NCBI GenBank assembly: GCA_027483535.1
Contig: JAIXUN010000002.1
Span: 186,001 to 250,000 of the forward strand
DNA length: 64,000 nt
DNA from: a bacterium
GTDB taxonomy: Bacteria > Armatimonadota > Fimbriimonadia > Fimbriimonadales > Fimbriimonadaceae
Reading direction: 5' to 3'
Positions 9,600-61,344 of this stretch are shown one piece after another. Within the stretch, counting starts at the first letter, position 1. Each line of letters opens with the position of its first letter. The position numbers and the translations under genes are program-made. The notes beneath the pieces were generated by a model. It searched no databases, was not told the origin of the DNA, and saw only the letters and a program-made list of their open reading frames with translations.

Positions 9600-10586
9600 A
9601 TGGCAAACCCACTACCGACAATTTTGTTCATGATTCTGGCGGCGTTGAGTTGGTTCGCCTCCGGGGTCCAAGCCGATCCGGCTACGGGATGGTGGAAGTT
9701 CGTGCTCGCGCTGTTCATCTCTGGGTTCCTGAGTTCGGCGTTGCGCGTTGCGGCTCAATGGGAAAAGGTCATCGTGTTCCGCTTGGGTCGCTATCATGCG
9801 CTGAAAGGTCCGGGGATCTTTACGGTCTTGCCGTTCTTCGATACGACTCGGCGGGTGGATACTCGGATCACCACGCTTGATATTCCGACCCAGCAAGCGA
9901 TCACGAAGGACAACGTTCCTGTCTCGCTCGACGGCGTCATTTTCTTGCGGGTAGATAACCCTGCCAACGCGATCATTCAGGTTCAAAACTACCAAAGCGC
10001 GATTCGGCAATATGCTCAAACCGCCCTTCGAGACGTGGTGGGTAGCGTGACGCTCGACCAGATTCTTGCCGACCGGGAGGCGCTTGGCGAACGGATCGAG
10101 AAGATGGTGGAGATGGAAACCGACGGTTGGGGTCTGCAGATCGCGGGTATTCGCATCCAGGACATCGTCTTGCCGGAAGACCTGAAACGAGTGATGGCTC
10201 GACAAGCGGCCGCCGAGCGGGAGAAGCGGGCGAACATCACCAAGTCGGAAGGCGACCGAGAGGCGGCAGAAAACCTCGCAGCGGCGGCAAGGGAGATGGC
10301 AACCGCGCCGGGCGCTTTGCAACTTCGAACGCTTCAGTCTTTGGATACGCTCGGTAACTCGGCGGCGAACACGGTAGTGCTCGCGATCCCAATCGACGTG
10401 GTGAACGCGTTGCAAGCCGTTCCGAAGATGGTGGAAAACCGCAATCAGAATCTCGCGCCGCAAGCTCCGCCGGAACCGGTGGTTGCTCCTGTGGTCGCAC
10501 CTCTGAACGCAAGCGCGCTCGGCGGACTTCTGCAGAGCACAAAGCAGGAACCTAAGGATAACGTTTCCTTAACAGATAACGCTTAA
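9600..10586 (+). CDS. Slipin / stomatin-like SPFH-domain membrane protein
   Basis: A 328-residue protein with two N-terminal hydrophobic segments (about 5-22 and 33-50). The SPFH domain begins at QWEKVIVFRLGRYHALKGPG and continues through RVDTRITTLDIP and ITKDNVPVSLDGVIFLRV. A predicted coiled-coil, Ala/Glu-rich region (about 200-245) follows, with the typical slipin sequence AEREKRANITKSEGDREAA, and then a Pro-rich tail. Slipins oligomerise at the membrane and organise lipid domains or proteases. The usual partner, an NfeD-type membrane protease, is not next to it here. A terminator follows 38 bases after the stop. Confidence 0.93.
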   Translation: MANPLPTILFMILAALSWFASGVQADPATGWWKFVLALFISGFLSSALRVAAQWEKVIVFRLGRYHALKGPGIFTVLPFFDTTRRVDTRITTLDIPTQQAITKDNVPVSLDGVIFLRVDNPANAIIQVQNYQSAIRQYAQTALRDVVGSVTLDQILADREALGERIEKMVEMETDGWGLQIAGIRIQDIVLPEDLKRVMARQAAAEREKRANITKSEGDREAAENLAAAAREMATAPGALQLRTLQSLDTLGNSAANTVVLAIPIDVVNALQAVPKMVENRNQNLAPQAPPEPVVAPVVAPLNASALGGLLQSTKQEPKDNVSLTDNA

Positions 10587-10624
10587 GTTGGATTACTGCA
10601 TTTGCAGAATTTAAAAAATTGATT

Positions 10625-10660
10625 AGAGAGCATCCCCATTTTTGGGGATGCTCTCTTTGC
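10625..10660 (+). terminator. Terminator-like hairpin after the slipin gene
   Basis: A 13-bp perfect stem (10625-10637 with 10644-10656) around ATTTTT is followed by only a short T-run. The stem is strong but the U-tract is weak. Confidence 0.7.
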
Positions 10661-10664
10661 ATTA

Positions 10665-10699
10665 TTGACAATGATTAGAGATACCTATGCAGGGTATCT
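10665..10699 (+). promoter_or_regulatory. Possible promoter/operator upstream of the duplicated secreted protein
   Basis: A perfect -35 hexamer TTGACA (10665-10670) is followed by a 7+7 inverted repeat AGATACC-N7-GGTATCT (10679-10699). No good -10 hexamer is at the right spacing, so the promoter call is weak. The inverted repeat would suit a dimeric regulator. Confidence 0.35.
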
Positions 10700-10847
10700 A
10701 AAAGGGAGTCGGATGAGGCGCAATTCGAGACTGAGGACCCCCAAATATGGGGATAGGGCAGCCTTCTTACCATCAGTAGACTAAGGTCGTTCTTTGTTTT
10801 GGTTCGGTGGATTTAGAAGCTGAATCAAGATGGCTTTGGAGCAAAAT

Positions 10848-11624
10848 ATGACCCTAAAGGTAATTAGCAGCGCCGCTATCGCACTCGCGATTGCAGCCTC
10901 GTCGCTCGCAACGGGCGACCGCATCGTTCTCGCATCGGGATCTCTTGTTCGGGGGAGCACGGAGTATCCAAACGCAGTAGTCACTTACAACCCGGTGATG
11001 GACGCTTCTGGTGTTGGATCCAACCCTGGTATTGAGCTATGGCCCTCGGCGGCTGCCGAAGCAGCGGGCACGGGGCGACTTTCTCGATCCAACGACAACA
11101 ACGGCCAGTGGAACTACGCTCCGACAGGCGCGTTCTTCTCCGGTGGCCAGGTCTACGTTTACGGAACGAAGACGGGTAGCCACGGTCCTCGCGGAAACGT
11201 CTGGAGTGGAGGACAAGGCATGTTCTTAACTCAAACGGGCGCTTCGTACAGCGACCAACCGACTGTTCTTGAAGACGGTCGATCGCTTTTCGGACCGTTC
11301 ACCCTTCAGCGAGGAAACACCCTCCTCACTGAGGCTTATGTCACTTACGATCCGATTTTGGACGCGGCGGGTACGGGTTCCAATCCTGGGATCAACGTGT
11401 ATTCCAGCCTGGACGGCGCACTGAATCGGACGGGAAGTATCTTCCGATCGGTCGATAACAACGGTCAGTGGAATTACCGCGTCGACTCCGTCTTTAACTT
11501 CGGAAGCCAAATCTACATTCTCGGTGGACGTGGAGCCGGTTCGGGTGTGAAGGCTCCTCGAGTCTGGACCACCTTTAGTGCAGGCGGAGGCTTCCTCTCC
11601 CAGGCAGCAGGGTTCTCGCTCTAA
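10848..11624 (+). CDS. Secreted protein with an internal duplication, function unknown
   Basis: I do not recognise a family. The start is placed at ATG 10848 (MTLKVISSAAIALAIAASS), which gives a clean signal peptide and a GGAG site 6 bases upstream; an earlier in-frame ATG at 10830 lacks both. The 258-residue product has two copies of about 95 residues. Each copy has a VTYxPxxDAxGxGSNPGI motif and ends in D-N-N-G-Q-W-N-Y; the copies start near residues 35 and 160. Unlike its neighbours it has no PEP-CTERM tail. It is probably an envelope or matrix protein. A terminator follows. Confidence 0.7.
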   Translation: MTLKVISSAAIALAIAASSLATGDRIVLASGSLVRGSTEYPNAVVTYNPVMDASGVGSNPGIELWPSAAAEAAGTGRLSRSNDNNGQWNYAPTGAFFSGGQVYVYGTKTGSHGPRGNVWSGGQGMFLTQTGASYSDQPTVLEDGRSLFGPFTLQRGNTLLTEAYVTYDPILDAAGTGSNPGINVYSSLDGALNRTGSIFRSVDNNGQWNYRVDSVFNFGSQIYILGGRGAGSGVKAPRVWTTFSAGGGFLSQAAGFSL

Positions 11625-11645
11625 GGCAGGGTTACTGGAATGGTA

Positions 11646-11684
11646 CGAGACCTGGGGGATTCTCCTAGGTCTCGTTCTGTTTTA
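11646..11684 (+). terminator. Rho-independent terminator
   Basis: The stem CGAGACCT (11646-11653) pairs with AGGTCTCG (11667-11674) and is followed by TTCTGTTTT. It ends the transcript of the duplicated secreted protein. Confidence 0.75.
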
Positions 11685-11737
11685 GTAAAAGAATTAGTTA
11701 ATTTACTAATTAATCAAAATCAATAAAGAATTCTCGA

Positions 11738-11785
11738 ATATCGGTTTCTTTATATACCGGTTCATCCTAATACCGGTAGTTCTAG
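11738..11785 (+). repeat. Three tandem 16-bp direct repeats (iteron-like operator)
   Basis: The repeats start at 11738, 11754 and 11770: ATATCGGTTTCTTTAT, ATACCGGTTCATCCTA and ATACCGGTAGTTCTAG. The first nine positions are nearly identical (ATAYCGGTT/A) and the period is exactly 16. The array lies in an AT-rich leader about 80 bp before a PEP-CTERM gene and looks like a cooperative binding site for a transcription factor. Confidence 0.65.
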
Positions 11786-11866
11786 TGATGAGGATTAGGA
11801 GGATGCCTTTGTAGACTCATTTTGTTGGTTCGAGCTGAGCCAACTTGCTTTTGCAAAGGAGTATCA

Positions 11867-12637
11867 ATGAAGAAAACAATGCTTTTCGCCTCTCTTGGGC
11901 TTAGTGTGGTGGCAAGCGCCCAGCAAGTCCATGTCAACTCGCTCGCCTACCGACCCGTTTCTGACGGTGGCACCACCGTCCTCGGCGCCAAGTTCAAGAG
12001 CGACAACAACAACTGGGACTTTTCCCTTGCGAACACGGGCAGCACGGCAACCTCCGCAAACTTCATCCAAGCACAGGTCGGAAACAACGCTTTCATCAGT
12101 GCGCGCAACTACGCTTTTGCGTTGGAGCACAAGGTTGGCGAGGGCTTCATCTGGAGCATCACCGATAAAGCAGACAGCAGCGCAAAGACCACGCTCTCGT
12201 GGGGAACGTTTACAACCCCGCCTGCCGGAACCAACGCAGCGACACTGAACGGCATCGCACCGGACCGATCGTTCAACGCCCTGCGCATTGAGAACCGAGC
12301 AAGTAGTACCGGATCGCAGAACATCTTCTCCAACCTCTCATTCACCTCGGCAGCAACGTTCAATGGTTCGTTCTTCAACGGAACCATCACGCCAAGCACA
12401 GGTTACAATCCTTTCAGCGCAGTCAGCAACGGATTCTCTGTTCAGTGGCTGGTGTCAGATACGGATCTCTCTACCTACAACTGGACTCTCGGAGGAGATG
12501 TGCAACTGGTAGGTGGTAACAACGAAGCCCTCCGCATGGACATTCAAGGTCGATCCCTCCAAGCCGTTCCCGAACCCGGAACGATGGCCGCACTGGGTCT
12601 TGGAATTGCCGCTTTGTTGAAGCGCAAGCGCAAGTAA
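11867..12637 (+). CDS. PEP-CTERM secreted protein
   Basis: A 256-residue exported protein. The start at 11867 (MKKTMLFASLGLSVVASAQ) has AAAGGAG 5 bases upstream and gives a normal signal peptide. The C-terminus VPEPGTMAALGLGIAALLKRKRK has the three parts of a PEP-CTERM anchor: the VPEP motif, a hydrophobic helix and a basic tail. Exosortase systems process such tails to place proteins at the surface or in the extracellular matrix. The central part is Asn/Ser/Thr-rich with no recognised domain. Its leader carries three 16-bp direct repeats. A strong terminator follows. Confidence 0.85.
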   Translation: MKKTMLFASLGLSVVASAQQVHVNSLAYRPVSDGGTTVLGAKFKSDNNNWDFSLANTGSTATSANFIQAQVGNNAFISARNYAFALEHKVGEGFIWSITDKADSSAKTTLSWGTFTTPPAGTNAATLNGIAPDRSFNALRIENRASSTGSQNIFSNLSFTSAATFNGSFFNGTITPSTGYNPFSAVSNGFSVQWLVSDTDLSTYNWTLGGDVQLVGGNNEALRMDIQGRSLQAVPEPGTMAALGLGIAALLKRKRK

Positions 12638-54995: not shown

Positions 54996-56909
54996 ATGGA
55001 GCCAAATTCCGACGCCGCTCATCCGCAAGGAGAGTTCCCCCTGCTGGAAGGCATCGCTCAACCAAGCGACCTGCATCGACTGGACGTGAAACAGCTCAAA
55101 GAGGTGGCCGCCGAAGTGCGCCGAGCCATCTTGGAGAAGGTGAGCCAAACGGGCGGGCACTTCAGCTCGAACCTCGGTACGGTGGAGCTCACCGTGGCGA
55201 TGTACGCCGCCTATTCGCTTCCGCCCGACAAGGTGGTTTGGGACACCGGTCACCAGGCCTACCCACACAAACTTCTCACAGGTCGATTGAATCGCTTCGA
55301 CACCCTACGTAAGCATCGCGGACTCCGAGGCTTCCTCTCCCGAGACGAACACGAACTGGATGCGTTCGGCGCGGGTCACGCGGGTACAGCCGTTTCCGCC
55401 GCCCTCGGATTTGCCCTTGCCAGAGACCGGATGCAGGAGACTTACCGAGTCGCCGCCGTTGCCGGAGACGCCTCCATCGTGAGCGGCATGAGCTGGGAAG
55501 CGCTCAACCATGCGGGAGAACTGGATACTCAGCTAACCGTAGTGCTGAACGACAACCGCATGTCGATTGCGCCCAACGTCGGCGCGCTCCACAACTATCT
55601 CGCCAAGCTGCGATCCAGGCCACAGCTTCAAGACATCGCCTATCGAGCCAAATCTCTCGCGGAGAAAATGCCCGACCCCATCACGCGGGTCGCTGCGGGC
55701 TTGCGGCACGGAATCACCCACTACCTAGCGCCGGAAGAGACGGGCACCATCTTTGAAGAGATGGGCTTTGAATACATCGGCCCGTTGGATGGTCACGATC
55801 TGGAGACCATGCTCGAGGTCTTCCGCAACGTGCGAGACCTCAAGCGACCCGTGTTCGTGCACGCCCTCACCGTAAAGGGCAAGGGGTACGAGGTTGCCGA
55901 ATCGGACGCGACCAAGTGGCACGGCGTGATCCCGTTTGATCTAGATAGGTGCGAAATGGTGAAGGTTGCGGGTCCGCAAACTTACACCCAAGCGTTCGGA
56001 TCGGCAGTGATGGACCTTGCCGAAAAGGATTCTAAGGTCGTGGCGATCACCGCCGCGATGCCGGATGGCACGGGTTTGATCCCGTTTTCTAAGAAGTACC
56101 CCGAGCGATACTACGACACGGGCATTGCCGAACAGCACGCCGTAACCCTTGCCGCAGGCATGGCCGCCGCCGGCCTCAAGCCGTTCTGCGCCATCTACTC
56201 CACCTTCCTGCAACGCGCGTTCGACCAAGTGCTTCACGACGTCGCGCTTCAACGCCTCCCGGTTCGATTCTGCTTGGACCGAGCCGGATTGGTGGGCGAC
56301 GACGGTCCCACTCACCACGGCGCGTTCGATCTTTCTTATTTAGGTCTCATCCCCGGAATGGTGCTCATGGCTCCTCGTGACACCACCGAGCTTCAGGAGA
56401 TGATGTCGTTCATGGCGGGGTTCGACTCTGGTCCCACCGTGGTGCGATACCCACGCGGCACCGACGAGGGTCGAGTGCCGGAACGACGCACCCCAATCGA
56501 ACTCGGCAAGGCCGAGATTCTTCGCAAAGGAACCGACGTGGCGTTTGTGGCGATCGGCTCGATGGTCGGCGCGGCATGGGACGCCGCCGAGCATTTGGCA
56601 GAGAAGGGAATCCACGCGACCGTGGTCAACGCCCGATTCGCTAAGCCGATCGACGTCGCGACCATTCGCGCCGTGGTGGAATCTCACCCGATGACGTTTG
56701 TGCTGGAAGAGAACGCCCTGGTGGGCGGGTTCGGTCAGCAGGTGCTCATGGCAATGCCGGAGTTTGCGGGCAAACTGCGGCTCAAGGGTCTGCCGGATGC
56801 GTTTGTGGAGCACGGCGCGCAAGGGATTCTGCGCTCGGAATGCGGTCTCGACGCGCTTTCGATTGCGGACGAGGCAGAGGAGACTCTGCAAGGTCTGAAG
56901 AAGAACTAA
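54996..56909 (+). CDS. dxs: 1-deoxy-D-xylulose-5-phosphate synthase
   Basis: Dxs joins pyruvate and glyceraldehyde 3-phosphate in a thiamine-dependent reaction, the first step of the MEP isoprenoid pathway. The 637-residue product has the early loop TGHQAYPHKLLTGR, the thiamine site GDASIVSGMSWEALNHAG continuing to LNDNRMSI, EYIGPLDGHDL, DTGIAEQHAVTLAAGMA and DRAGLVGDDGPTHHGAFDLSYL. All are normal for the family, with GDA in place of the common GDG. AGGAAAG precedes the ATG. The stop codon overlaps that of the convergent photolyase gene. Confidence 0.97.
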   Translation: MEPNSDAAHPQGEFPLLEGIAQPSDLHRLDVKQLKEVAAEVRRAILEKVSQTGGHFSSNLGTVELTVAMYAAYSLPPDKVVWDTGHQAYPHKLLTGRLNRFDTLRKHRGLRGFLSRDEHELDAFGAGHAGTAVSAALGFALARDRMQETYRVAAVAGDASIVSGMSWEALNHAGELDTQLTVVLNDNRMSIAPNVGALHNYLAKLRSRPQLQDIAYRAKSLAEKMPDPITRVAAGLRHGITHYLAPEETGTIFEEMGFEYIGPLDGHDLETMLEVFRNVRDLKRPVFVHALTVKGKGYEVAESDATKWHGVIPFDLDRCEMVKVAGPQTYTQAFGSAVMDLAEKDSKVVAITAAMPDGTGLIPFSKKYPERYYDTGIAEQHAVTLAAGMAAAGLKPFCAIYSTFLQRAFDQVLHDVALQRLPVRFCLDRAGLVGDDGPTHHGAFDLSYLGLIPGMVLMAPRDTTELQEMMSFMAGFDSGPTVVRYPRGTDEGRVPERRTPIELGKAEILRKGTDVAFVAIGSMVGAAWDAAEHLAEKGIHATVVNARFAKPIDVATIRAVVESHPMTFVLEENALVGGFGQQVLMAMPEFAGKLRLKGLPDAFVEHGAQGILRSECGLDALSIADEAEETLQGLKKN

Positions 56910-58477
56910 AACTCCAAAGATGGCTGGTCGGCGGGTTTCTTGCTCGCCGATCTCGTTCCTTTGGGCGGCTTGGGACGCTCAATCGGTCGCCTTCTCGATC
57001 CGTGTTTCTGAGTCACCCCGCGCACTTCCGACCAATATTCCGGCTGAGAAGCCCGGTGCGCCGCGATCCGCCGCTTCGCCTCGGCGACCGCCGCCAAATG
57101 ATCCACCACTGGAGCCGGATAATCTCGCCCGATCCGCACCCCGCTGGATGCCTGAAGCTCGTCTGGCATAAGCCAAGGGGTGTGAATCCACGTGCTGCTC
57201 ACCCCGGCGAGTTCGGGAATCCAGCGCCGTAGAAACACCCCGTCTGGATCATGATCTTGGCTTTGCTTGGTGGGGTTGTAAATGCGCAGCGTGTTGATTC
57301 CCGTGGTTCCGGATTGCATTTGGAACTGGCTGTAGTGGATGCCGGGTTCGTAGTCTAGCCATGCCTTAGCCGTGAACAGCGCGGTGGGTTTCCAATGCAG
57401 CCACAACTGATAGGCGGCAAAAGAGGCGAGCATGGCGCGCATGCGAAAGTTGAGCCACCCGGTTTCCACCAGGCACCGCATGCAGGCATCGATCATCGGG
57501 TACCCGGTTTTGCCCTCGCACCACGCCGCAAGGAGATCTTCGTTGAGAGATTCTTCGCGCAGACCATCGAGCGCGCGGACGAAGTTGTGATGCTCGATCG
57601 CGGGTTCCGATTCCAACTTCTGAACGAAGTGGCATCGCCAGTGCAGACGCTCGTCGAACCCGCGCAGACTCCGTTTCCAGCGGGTGGTTCGAGGGTCGTC
57701 CGGGTCCAGTTGGGCGATCCGGGCTCGGGTGGCTTGGATCACTTGTCGGCTGCTGAGGTTGCCGAATGCCAGATACGGGCTCAGCCGACTCCCCGCCTCA
57801 AAAGCGGTGATCGGAGAACTGATCCCGCCCAGAAACTTCACCCCTCGCCGCTGAAGGAAGTCGTCTAGTACCAAGTGCGCCGCATCTTCGCCCCCGCGCT
57901 GTTCCACCTGACGTACGGAAGCGAAGCCGAGGTCTTGCAAGGTTGGGAGTTTTGAAGAAACCTCCAGCGGAGTGTCTATGGAAGCCGGAGGCGGGGTGAG
58001 GGGTTCGGCCATGCGCTGCTCCCAAGTACGCGCCCAGCCGTCTCTCGACCGTAATCGTCGGACCACGCCATTGGTCGGCCACTCTGTAAAAGGAATCCGA
58101 TTCGCCTTGCACCACCGATGTACGGCAAGGTCGCGAGCAAAGGTGATCGCGTTGCCGGTCTCTTCGTGAGCGCAAATCTCTTCGATCTCGTACTGGGTGG
58201 ATAGCTCTTGGAAGACGTCTACCGCCTCTCCGACCCTTAGGCAGAGTCTGCCGCCGCGTTCCTCCAGGGCGCTCCTGAGTGCTTTGAGCGATTCCAGCAG
58301 GAACCGAACGTGGATCGCGTCGCAGTCCGGTGCCCGCAGAACCGAGGGCTCAAACATGAAAAGCGGAAGCACGGTCCCGCGCTCGCAGGCGTGGACGAGT
58401 GGGCGATGATCGGAGAGGCGCAGGTCCTTTTTGAACCAAACAATCCGAACCCTGGGTTTGGTCGTGTTGGCTCCCAT
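56906..58477 (-). CDS. Cryptochrome/photolyase-family flavoprotein
   Basis: A 523-residue DNA photolyase-like protein. The N-terminal Rossmann-like antenna domain starts RIVWFKKDLRLSDHRPL, and the FAD-binding half contains KTGYPMIDACMRCLVETGWLNFRMRAMLASF and INTLRIYNPTKQSQDHDPDG. This form, with the NPTKQSQDHDP segment, fits the FAD-binding cryptochrome/photolyase type seen in many bacteria. It likely repairs UV dimers or senses blue light; specificity cannot be read here. ATG at 58477 starts at the family N-terminus, and the frame extends 38 codons upstream. It overlaps dxs tail-to-tail by 4 bases. Confidence 0.92.
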   Translation of the reverse strand: MGANTTKPRVRIVWFKKDLRLSDHRPLVHACERGTVLPLFMFEPSVLRAPDCDAIHVRFLLESLKALRSALEERGGRLCLRVGEAVDVFQELSTQYEIEEICAHEETGNAITFARDLAVHRWCKANRIPFTEWPTNGVVRRLRSRDGWARTWEQRMAEPLTPPPASIDTPLEVSSKLPTLQDLGFASVRQVEQRGGEDAAHLVLDDFLQRRGVKFLGGISSPITAFEAGSRLSPYLAFGNLSSRQVIQATRARIAQLDPDDPRTTRWKRSLRGFDERLHWRCHFVQKLESEPAIEHHNFVRALDGLREESLNEDLLAAWCEGKTGYPMIDACMRCLVETGWLNFRMRAMLASFAAYQLWLHWKPTALFTAKAWLDYEPGIHYSQFQMQSGTTGINTLRIYNPTKQSQDHDPDGVFLRRWIPELAGVSSTWIHTPWLMPDELQASSGVRIGRDYPAPVVDHLAAVAEAKRRIAAHRASQPEYWSEVRGVTQKHGSRRRPIERPKPPKGTRSASKKPADQPSLEF

Positions 58478-58758
58478 CGCACCGGGTTCTACGTGAGTTT
58501 TTGAGGGGTCGGTGCCCGAATCGGGCTTGCTCCGTCCAGGACGGCGAACAGGGAGCCTTTGCAAGAAAGTATCGTCCGCGATCTTTTGCAAAGAGGGATT
58601 CGTTTACCAACGTTAAGAAATACAAAAGGCTGGTTCCGTATCCACAAATACCTGTTACTATAGAGACCGGAGACGTTTTCAACGATGAAACAAATCCCCC
58701 CAGCCGCTTTTACAGCTTGCCTCAATGTTGGCAACCTTTCCGTTTTCGACAGGGTTGC

Positions 58759-59922
58759 TTGGTCAGTGAACTTTTGCCGAAAGCCCTTCGCCCGGTTCTA
58801 ACCTCTGCGTGTGCTCTTGTCGCCCTGACGTTTGGAGTTGCCGAACAGGCGAGCGCTCAGGGTCCCGGCGGCGCGCAGCCCGCCCTGGTTTCGATCGATC
58901 TCAAGGGGTCGAATCACTACCGTTGTAAGACAAATCTTGGTGGTCTCCTACCAACGGTCGAATTCCAGATAGCTGGACAGCAATTGCCTCAGTTTGTGAC
59001 TAGCGCTGCCAAGTTAGGAACCACTATTGATGCCGACATCACCTACAAGAATCCGAGCCTGTTCCTCACGGTCTCTTCCACTACTGTCAGAGCCGAGTAC
59101 AACGGCGTCACCTGTGGTCCCACCCGGACAATTACTTTCAGTCCTCCGTTGGCTCCACTGGAGACGCGTACAGTGACCACTCAAGTTGGAGCTCTCCCCA
59201 ATCGTGTTGACGATGGAACTCTGCTAGTACTAACCGCGTCAACCGGCATTCCCTTAAAACTCTTCTTGGTTTATGATTCACCTCGCGACCAAATGAACCA
59301 GCCGTGGCTGGGCATGCTCCAGCGTGCATGTGCTTGGGCAAGGGGTAAATCGACGCCCGACGAAATTGCTCGAGAGGTTGTTTTCGACTTTTTCTACAGC
59401 CAGGAAGCAGCGTACGATAGCACAGTTAATAACTATTTTATTCCTGATACAGTAACTGGTACAGGAACATACCTCTTGACAGAGTGGTTAAACAATTCTG
59501 GGTACAGAATGATGGACTGCAAGGACGTTGCTGGGCTGACTTCCCTTTTCCTCAAAGCGGTAGGGTTGCAGAGCGAGCCTGAAGTTTGGGGTGAGTTTTC
59601 CGGTGTAAACGACAACAACGGAAATCTAATCTTTTGGGACTTCCTGACAAAACCGCTATGCGGAATCGGAAGCGACTCGACTGATCCGGCAAACTACAAC
59701 GTTTATACCTTCACTCACCACGCCATGGTCTCGCTTCATAACGGCAACTACGCCGACGTTGCTGCTGCTCAGCAGTACCACTTCTCAACATTTGGTGGCT
59801 ATTGGAATCCACCATGCGACTGGCCGTTTATTGGTTACTGGGACATTGGACTTGTTGTATTACCCAATCCGTCTAACCCCAAGAAGTACCCAATAAGCAT
59901 GTTGGGCATGCCCGTTATTTAG
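58759..59922 (+). CDS. Secreted transglutaminase-like cysteine protein
   Basis: A protein of about 387 residues. No in-frame ATG precedes the signal peptide, so I place the start at TTG 58759 (MVSELLPKALRPVLTSACAL then ALTFGVAEQASAQ), with AGGG upstream. The N-terminal domain is beta-rich. The C-terminal half reads like a transglutaminase fold: CAWARGKSTPDEIAREVVFDF, the probable nucleophile in YRMMDCKDVAGLTSLFLKAVGL, and His in YTFTHHAMVSLHNG. Transglutaminase-like proteins cross-link or cleave peptides. It starts a group with two small secreted proteins, and its GC is visibly lower than that of the neighbouring dxs/photolyase genes. Confidence 0.65.
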   Translation: MVSELLPKALRPVLTSACALVALTFGVAEQASAQGPGGAQPALVSIDLKGSNHYRCKTNLGGLLPTVEFQIAGQQLPQFVTSAAKLGTTIDADITYKNPSLFLTVSSTTVRAEYNGVTCGPTRTITFSPPLAPLETRTVTTQVGALPNRVDDGTLLVLTASTGIPLKLFLVYDSPRDQMNQPWLGMLQRACAWARGKSTPDEIAREVVFDFFYSQEAAYDSTVNNYFIPDTVTGTGTYLLTEWLNNSGYRMMDCKDVAGLTSLFLKAVGLQSEPEVWGEFSGVNDNNGNLIFWDFLTKPLCGIGSDSTDPANYNVYTFTHHAMVSLHNGNYADVAAAQQYHFSTFGGYWNPPCDWPFIGYWDIGLVVLPNPSNPKKYPISMLGMPVI

Positions 59923-59930
59923 GAAATGCT

Positions 59931-60527
59931 ATGAGTCATCTACTCAAACTCGTCGTGAGAAATCTCACAATCTCCGTCTCTCTTTTAGGATTTTCAAGCG
60001 GCACCTTGGCTGCTGATCTTGCAAAGTTCTTGCCAAACCCAAGCTCTATAGGTCTCCGAATGGACCTCGACAGTGAGAGATTATCGTCTCTTCCCGGAAA
60101 ACTGTTCGCACGCTTCACAGGCATAACACCTGCTGACGGAAGCCATCCGGAACGAATAACGTTCTCTGCATACCGAGTAAATGATATTCAACGAATCATG
60201 AGTGCCAGCACCGACCGACGCAATGCAAACTCCGTCGGACAAACTGCAAAAGATTACAGCACGGCGTTTGCGACAAACGGTTGGAAGCTGGTGAGCTTTT
60301 GGACCCCCGAGTCAACCAGTTATTCTTTCAGGTTAACCGCCTACCTTCCCGTAAGCCCAGGAACTTCCGATGGATGGGTCATATCAGCGCTCTGGACAAG
60401 TACGAACGGTAAGCGAGTGAAGGGCAAGCCAGACGGCAGGAAACTGACCAAAGAGGACTTAGCCGTTGCCGCAAAGTTGATCGAAAAGTTCATTCAGAAC
60501 GGTCGTAAGGAAGGCTGGCCAAACTAG
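59931..60527 (+). CDS. Small secreted protein of the transglutaminase-like cassette
   Basis: A 198-residue protein with a signal peptide (LTISVSLLGFSSGTLAA). It begins 8 bases after the transglutaminase-like gene. No family is recognised. The C-terminus DGRKLTKEDLAVAAKLIEKF followed by IQNGRKEGW resembles the C-terminus of the next protein (LAKEHSILAAEILKEVFEQG then KRLKVW), which suggests the two are distant paralogues. The rest is beta-rich with a SFWTPESTSYSFRLTAYLP strand pair. Confidence 0.68.
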   Translation: MSHLLKLVVRNLTISVSLLGFSSGTLAADLAKFLPNPSSIGLRMDLDSERLSSLPGKLFARFTGITPADGSHPERITFSAYRVNDIQRIMSASTDRRNANSVGQTAKDYSTAFATNGWKLVSFWTPESTSYSFRLTAYLPVSPGTSDGWVISALWTSTNGKRVKGKPDGRKLTKEDLAVAAKLIEKFIQNGRKEGWPN

Positions 60528-60538
60528 GCAGGTCTTCG

Positions 60539-60567
60539 CAAGGTGAGGAATTTCATTCCTCACCTTG
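60539..60567 (+). other. Intercistronic hairpin
   Basis: A perfect 12-bp stem (60539-60550 with 60556-60567) lies between the two small genes. It lacks a U-tract, so it is more likely an mRNA-stabilising or processing hairpin than a full terminator. Confidence 0.6.
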
Positions 60568-60597
60568 GGTTGTTCGAGCAGATCTATTAGAAGAAAC

Positions 60598-61251
60598 ATG
60601 TCCACTTTGGCTATTGCTAGCTGTTATCTGACCACAATGATTTGCGGACTTCCTCAGGCGTCTTCCAGTCAAGACACAGCCATGCATCCAGACATATGGA
60701 AGTCGGTATCTTGTAGCGCCTTAGTCCAGACTCTCAGAAAGCTCCCAAATGTTTCAGGAGTGACCGTTTATGACACACCAGGAAACCCCGTCTACGTCTT
60801 TCAGGTCGAGTACCAGTTCTCACCCCGACTCGCAATGCCGAAAGGACGGTACACCGTAAGCCTGTATCCCAGCCAGAACATCGTTCTTGAACAGGAACGA
60901 AGGGTGAATAGGCACTTCTCTAGTATTCCGAACCCACCAAAAATGGTAGATCTGAGTAAAACCTTCAATGTTCAGGGATTTGCTCTGTTCGATGACGTTC
61001 AAGGAGATCCTCTTTTCAACCTTGGCTGGGCGGCATTCGTCCGAGTTGCACCCGAAACCAAGATAGGTTTGGAGATGAAAATCGTTACGAGCGGCCGTCT
61101 TAATCTAGGCGAAGACGGAAAGCCTATTTACCTTGCCGATGGGAAGCAAGATCGGCTTCCGCTCGCCAAAGAGCACTCTATCCTGGCCGCGGAGATTCTT
61201 AAAGAAGTTTTCGAGCAGGGCAAACGACTGAAGGTTTGGAAAGGAGAGTAG
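60598..61251 (+). CDS. Small secreted protein, second of the cassette
   Basis: A 217-residue protein with signal peptide MSTLAIASCYLTTMICGLPQ from ATG 60598 (AGAAG upstream); a TTG-type start at 60565 would spoil the signal. It has a central beta-rich region (VYVFQVEYQFSPRLAMPKGRY, LFNLGWAAFVRVAPETKIGL) and a C-terminal helix (ILAAEILKEVFEQGKRLKVW) similar to the upstream protein. Two cysteines lie in the signal peptide and one just after it (SVSCSALVQ). Function is unknown. A terminator follows about 70 bases later. Confidence 0.68.
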   Translation: MSTLAIASCYLTTMICGLPQASSSQDTAMHPDIWKSVSCSALVQTLRKLPNVSGVTVYDTPGNPVYVFQVEYQFSPRLAMPKGRYTVSLYPSQNIVLEQERRVNRHFSSIPNPPKMVDLSKTFNVQGFALFDDVQGDPLFNLGWAAFVRVAPETKIGLEMKIVTSGRLNLGEDGKPIYLADGKQDRLPLAKEHSILAAEILKEVFEQGKRLKVWKGE

Positions 61252-61318: not shown

Positions 61319-61344
61319 CAGCCCCTAACTTGGGGCTGTTTTTT
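61319..61344 (+). terminator. Rho-independent terminator of the cassette
   Basis: CAGCCCC (61319-61325) pairs with GGGGCTG (61332-61338), followed by TTTTTT. Confidence 0.85.

Follow-up and report, generated by a model that had tools for sequence, protein, structure and literature searches.

A conserved bacterial cassette encoding a predicted exported transglutaminase-fold enzyme and its exported partners

The animal transglutaminases TG2, TG3 and factor XIII-A place a catalytic core behind a beta-sandwich, and enzymes of this type carry two further C-terminal beta-barrels. In bacteria, PMC4359373 describes LapG, one of the BTLCP proteases, as an exported transglutaminase-fold cysteine enzyme under the control of a binding partner, LapD. 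Polymorphic toxin systems include transglutaminase-fold toxins and PsbP/MOG1-like neighbours, and type VI secretion (T6SS) operons place PsbP/MOG1-like proteins beside toxin genes, according to PMC3482391. In the T6SS pair Tse3-Tsi3, the partner Tsi3 occludes the active site of its enzyme; a similarity of Tsi3 to MOG1P and PsbP is pointed out in the same paper (PMC3792639).

The cassette analyzed here occupies positions 58759–61251 of a 64,000-nucleotide stretch of bacterial DNA, which is referred to as the window. As in Tse3-Tsi3 and TplE-TplEi, an enzyme gene is accompanied by an exported partner whose predicted fold resembles that of immunity proteins; the enzyme is of another type, and inhibition is what we propose for it here. 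Compared with LapG, the first gene product has no Pfam match to any transglutaminase family, and no membrane receptor for c-di-GMP serves as its partner. We recognized no description of this enzyme-partner pair in the literature consulted.

Cassette layout and the fold of the first gene product

Three co-oriented ORFs on the plus strand make up the cassette, as the first-pass annotation had reported. Gene 1 (58759–59922; 387 aa, TTG start) encodes the predicted exported transglutaminase-fold enzyme. Gene 2 (59931–60527; 198 aa) begins 8 nt past gene 1 in the partner position and is a probable divergent partner, and gene 3 (60598–61251; 217 aa, or 228 aa from an alternative TTG start at 60565) is a probable paralogue of gene 2 and a second partner. 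Each of the three begins with a signal-peptide-like stretch, as judged by eye. The low GC content noted earlier is borne out: the cassette has 50.3% GC versus 56.7% for the window (51.3, 49.9 and 49.4% for genes 1, 2 and 3), none of 1131 equally long, non-overlapping windows is as GC-poor, and no stretch of this length in the window has a lower GC content. Further 500-bp stretches at 48–49% GC are located at 1501–2000, 10501–11000 and 11501–12000.

The cassette had also been credited with a start and a terminator of its own, of which the terminator stands, as a terminator-like hairpin followed by TTTTTT lies at 61319–61338 of the plus strand. A scan by consensus gave no plus-strand promoter site for the cassette, with sites no commoner than in shuffled sequence, and its own promoter is thus not established. 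Between genes 2 and 3 lies an inverted repeat (60540–60566, plus strand) whose 12-bp arms pair perfectly around a 3-nt loop; it lacks a T-run and has no second copy in the 64-kb window at up to 3 mismatches. A photolyase-family gene (56906–58591) adjoins the cassette, and the second copy in the genome is only 31% identical to it. Those genomes of the genus that have both the photolyase and the dehydrogenase gene flanking the cassette do not carry them side by side, so that no empty insertion site is available for comparison.

The gene 1 product is divided into a beta-sandwich (residues about 41–171) and a core (about 181–385). Its AlphaFold model (pLDDT 80.1) presents the beta-sandwich followed by a papain/transglutaminase core, for which Foldseek returns TG3, TG2 and factor XIII as the best matches (top E 1.3e-8). 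The model can be superimposed on TG2 (VIA) with a Z of 13.7 and an rmsd of 4.0 over 271 residues, which covers both domains, with residues 37–385 lying on TG2 1–430. When A1, a 23-row profile of the family, is compared with the PDB, TG3 ranks first, a result that is weak by itself (E 0.27), and the alignment sets the GQCW cysteine and the NFHV histidine of TG3, which we take to be its catalytic residues, opposite the family Cys and His. Searches of Pfam and NCBIfam and a single-sequence search of the PDB yielded no match that names gene 1; none of 23 family members matches Transglut_core or its sister models in Pfam at E 0.1, and the only transglutaminase-related Pfam match of gene 1 is Transglut_C (E 0.29).

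The predicted triad, Cys254, His321 and Asp333, is invariant in the alignment of relatives, even though the family rows are only ~25% identical to the gene 1 protein of the window. Among all six-frame matches, the Cys, the His and the Asp are each found in 65 of the 65 segments that cover the position; each position is missing from 17 of the 82 segments because those segments are fragments. The Cys-x-Asp and His-His arrangement described previously is present as Cys254-Lys-Asp256 and His320-His321; of the two histidines, His321 alone is conserved, and Asp333 completes the triad. A transglutaminase-type active site is well supported by the invariance of the triad together with the fold match and the alignment to TG3. 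In contrast to the animal enzymes, the gene 1 product is bacterial, exported and 387 aa long, shares about 12% identity with them, and stops after the core without the C-terminal barrels; the spacing between its His and Asp is shorter than the generally known spacing in TG2.

The partner gene directly behind the enzyme

Relatives of gene 1 occur in 18 of 100 related genomes, and the search with profile A1 locates the enzyme in 38 of the 291 genomes that represent the phylum, presumably the Armatimonadota, its own genome included. None was found in the plasmids, phages or viral contigs searched. A motif search of named genomes gave one relative, a contig of genome G094, which encodes the closest relatives of the enzyme (about 35% identity to gene 1). 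One enzyme ORF (L177:7071–8759; 562 aa) has a start that by eye resembles a transposase N-terminus, possibly a joined insertion element.

In the relatives, an exported ORF lies directly behind the enzyme gene, often with a 4-nt overlap. A census of 69 enzyme genes, from which the weakest, below-threshold matches in G153, G196 and G205 were left out, places a match to the partner core downstream of 54; those three weak matches each have a downstream ORF as well. Of the other 15, 6 reach the contig end and 9, the window included, carry an unrecognized exported ORF. The 63 enzyme genes with enough contig downstream are thus followed by a recognizable partner (54) or an unrecognized exported ORF (9; L038, L061, L110, L166, L184–L186, L191 and the window, where the adjoining ORF was judged exported-looking by eye). 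A partner gene directly downstream of the enzyme is near-universal. Two consecutive partner cores follow 9 enzymes, including those of G006, from the genus of the window, and of G146–G148, whose partners are short, as are genes 2 and 3.

The partner profile was built from enzyme-adjacent genes and then used in a genome search that is blind to position, in which it matches 40 of 291 genomes. Both families are present in 32 genomes, the enzyme only in 6 and the partner only in 8 (odds ratio 163, Fisher p 4e-29, uncorrected for the relatedness of the genomes). The enzyme and the partner are two exported families that have no Pfam or NCBIfam models and whose pairing is conserved across one phylum. 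Among 81 partner genes in the fetched loci, 18 do not lie behind an enzyme, and a part of these 18 sit at the end of a contig. In G141, exported proteins that each contain two partner cores are encoded away from any enzyme gene (L161:3597–6127 and L162:4052–5173), and in G012 and G019, which belong to the same genus, a stand-alone partner core (L159:827–2068 and L160:3670–4371) is found close to a presumably TraB/GumN-like gene that has a YLLGSIHLGSKKMYPL motif.

The 55-row alignment of the partner core (A2) reveals an SG-x-P-x-G motif and a terminal helix as conserved features, and no conserved Gln or Lys. A C-terminal Cu_amine_oxidN1 domain is detected at E <0.05 in 6 of the 10 partners scanned, 3 of which exceed the Pfam cut-off; genes 2 and 3 of the window have no match to it. 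The core of a G094 partner was modelled with a pLDDT of 88.8 and a pTM of 0.84. Its closest structural matches are TiME (Z 9.5), an Rv0999 orthologue and the PknH sensor, all at Z 9.0–9.5, followed by Tsi3 (7.5), TplEi (6.8), PsbP (6.6) and Mog1 (6.5), while Foldseek is weak (best E 5.6e-3). The predicted partner core thus resembles TiME, the PknH sensor, PsbP and Mog1 as well as Tsi3, an immunity protein of the T6SS. It may share its fold with the PsbP, Mog1, LpqN, TiME and PknH-sensor domains (Z of about 5–9.5), but it has no sequence match to them and its gene context differs.

Of 28 cassettes picked by hand from the fetched loci, 26 are GC-poorer than their flanks (Wilcoxon p 9e-6; mean difference -5.2 points), the comparison being with flanks and not with exported genes in general. 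In 89 of 104 pairs, which are not independent and include some short partner alignments, the partner is less identical than the enzyme. Enzyme genes are split over frames in 10 of 72 cases and partner cores in 0 of 85, where about 5.5 splits would be expected after scaling by length; these breaks come from draft genomes, to which sequencing errors may contribute, and one partner (L178) is apparently broken outside the scored core. The G094 contig (L043:1–9584) holds three tandem enzyme-plus-partner units, the third with an enzyme split over two frames and an intact partner core.

Relation of genes 2 and 3 to the partner family

Genes 2 and 3 had been described as paralogues, which is likely, if short of certain. 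BLASTP aligns them at E 0.003, the likeness spans their length, the score is equalled in 3 of 4000 shuffles (local) and 1 of 2000 (semi-global), and it is matched by 1 of 1160 decoys with either one as query. Gene 3 is therefore probably a paralogue of gene 2, as far as sequence comparison tells. No recognizable orthologue of either turned up beyond chance level in any other of the 291 genomes: at E <= 0.1 per genome, gene 2 finds 36 genomes and gene 3 finds 10, their own included, whereas about 29 would be expected by chance. A match to gene 3 in G006, of the same genus (E 0.006), was dropped, as its frame contains stops. The literal three-gene set is consequently known from this genome only. 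What recurs across the phylum is the unit defined by position, an enzyme with one and sometimes two small exported partners, so that the proposed association is supported by position, but not by recognizable orthologues of the two small genes.

The link to the partner family differs between the two genes. By phmmer neither matches the family, and hhalign gives probabilities of 0.3 and 0.9% for genes 2 and 3 as single sequences and 0.5% for the profile-profile comparison. The mean likeness of gene 2 to the partner cores is reached by none of 300 shuffles. Against the HMM cterm, gene 2 scores 7.3 bits, which is reached by 0 of 2524 decoys (1781 scored) and, in another test, by 1 of 1160; results as good are obtained by 4 of 1160 decoys and 3 of 2000 shuffles with the HMM hB, by 18 of 1160 and 18 of 2000 with hA, by 53 of 1160 and 111 of 2000 with hC, and by 35 decoys and 24 of 2000 shuffles with a block model. 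Gene 3 alone gives nothing significant (32 of 300 shuffles; HMM tests), and with gene 2 included in the model it is equalled by 27 of 1160 decoys and 19 of 2000 shuffles. Gene 2 is probably a member of the partner family, mainly on account of its position, with a weak sequence link, and gene 3 is probably a second partner in view of its position and its likeness to gene 2. Both would share the partner fold. The faster divergence of partners than of enzymes would explain the weak signal of the two genes.

Possible roles of the partner

The triad, the fold and the export of gene 1 point to a cysteine enzyme that would perform acyl transfer outside the cytoplasm. Cys254, assisted by His321 and Asp333, may form a thioester, either with the side chain of a Gln or with a peptide carbonyl, and the acyl group would pass either to an amine, which results in a cross-link, or to water, which results in cleavage or deamidation. 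The product of gene 2, and probably that of gene 3, would be cognate partners that are made and exported together with the enzyme, bind it and restrain it, which would protect the producer or limit the site at which the enzyme acts. We infer the activity, the binding and the inhibition alike, and we favour an enzyme with its cognate inhibitor, possibly akin to a toxin-immunity pair, at a probability of about 0.45. An inhibitor or immunity protein accounts better than a substrate or a helper for the constant co-encoding, the fold class, the tandem and orphan copies, the rapid divergence and the one-sided decay, though these observations do not prove binding. Proteins with the Mog1/PsbP-like fold have many roles, as a photosystem subunit, in Ran binding, as sensor domains and as T6SS chaperones, and the fold is therefore no proof of inhibition. 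It also speaks against an inhibitor that TiME, which gives the best Z for the partner core, is no immunity protein, and that gene 3 alone does not match the partner family and gene 2 matches it weakly.

A partner that serves as the dedicated substrate or scaffold of the enzyme, cross-linked or trimmed into a surface layer and anchored to the envelope in the relatives by Cu_amine_oxidN1, is rather unlikely, though it accounts for the constant adjacency, the export of both proteins and the C-terminal domain of the six partners, and the rapid divergence of the partner also fits it. A substrate would not be expected to occur in 8 of 291 genomes without the enzyme, to leave frame breaks within the scored cores to the enzyme side, or to have a core devoid of conserved Gln or Lys, and the extra domain is not matched in the window.

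The inhibitor reading has a special case, with which its figures overlap, in which the enzyme attacks the envelope proteins of competitors as an antibacterial toxin and the tandem partners shield the producer. The tandem partners, the enzyme arrays in G094 and G189, the orphan partners, the low-GC cassettes, the similarity of the partner core to Tsi3 and TplEi and the composition of the polymorphic toxin systems cited above all agree with it; a stand-alone enzyme with simple Sec-type export, in which we see neither a trafficking domain nor the architecture of a multi-domain toxin, does not, and neither PADLOC (at E 0.1) nor PHROGs (below E 0.03) yielded a match. We regard this case as unlikely. 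Its fullest form is just as doubtful, namely an undescribed two-component antagonism system of the phylum, in which a Sec-exported animal-type transglutaminase weapon would be paired with tandem, fast-diversifying Mog1/PsbP-like immunity proteins, in low-GC cassettes whose decay would begin with the enzyme, so that orphan immunity genes stay behind.

Least probable is a chaperone, activator or sensor needed for enzyme folding or action, or a controller as LapD is of LapG, which would suit the fold class of the PknH and TiME domains, the T6SS gene neighbourhoods and the control of LapG described above, and the Eag chaperones that reportedly act in T6SS, but would leave unexplained why broken enzymes retain intact partner cores, unexpected for a mere helper, and why partner-only genomes occur.

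The beta-sandwich-plus-core layout of the animal transglutaminases in a predicted bacterial enzyme bears on the origin of that layout. Should the partner act as an inhibitor, it would provide a natural example of a protein that inhibits a transglutaminase-type enzyme, and the pairing of the enzyme with its partner makes the function directly testable.
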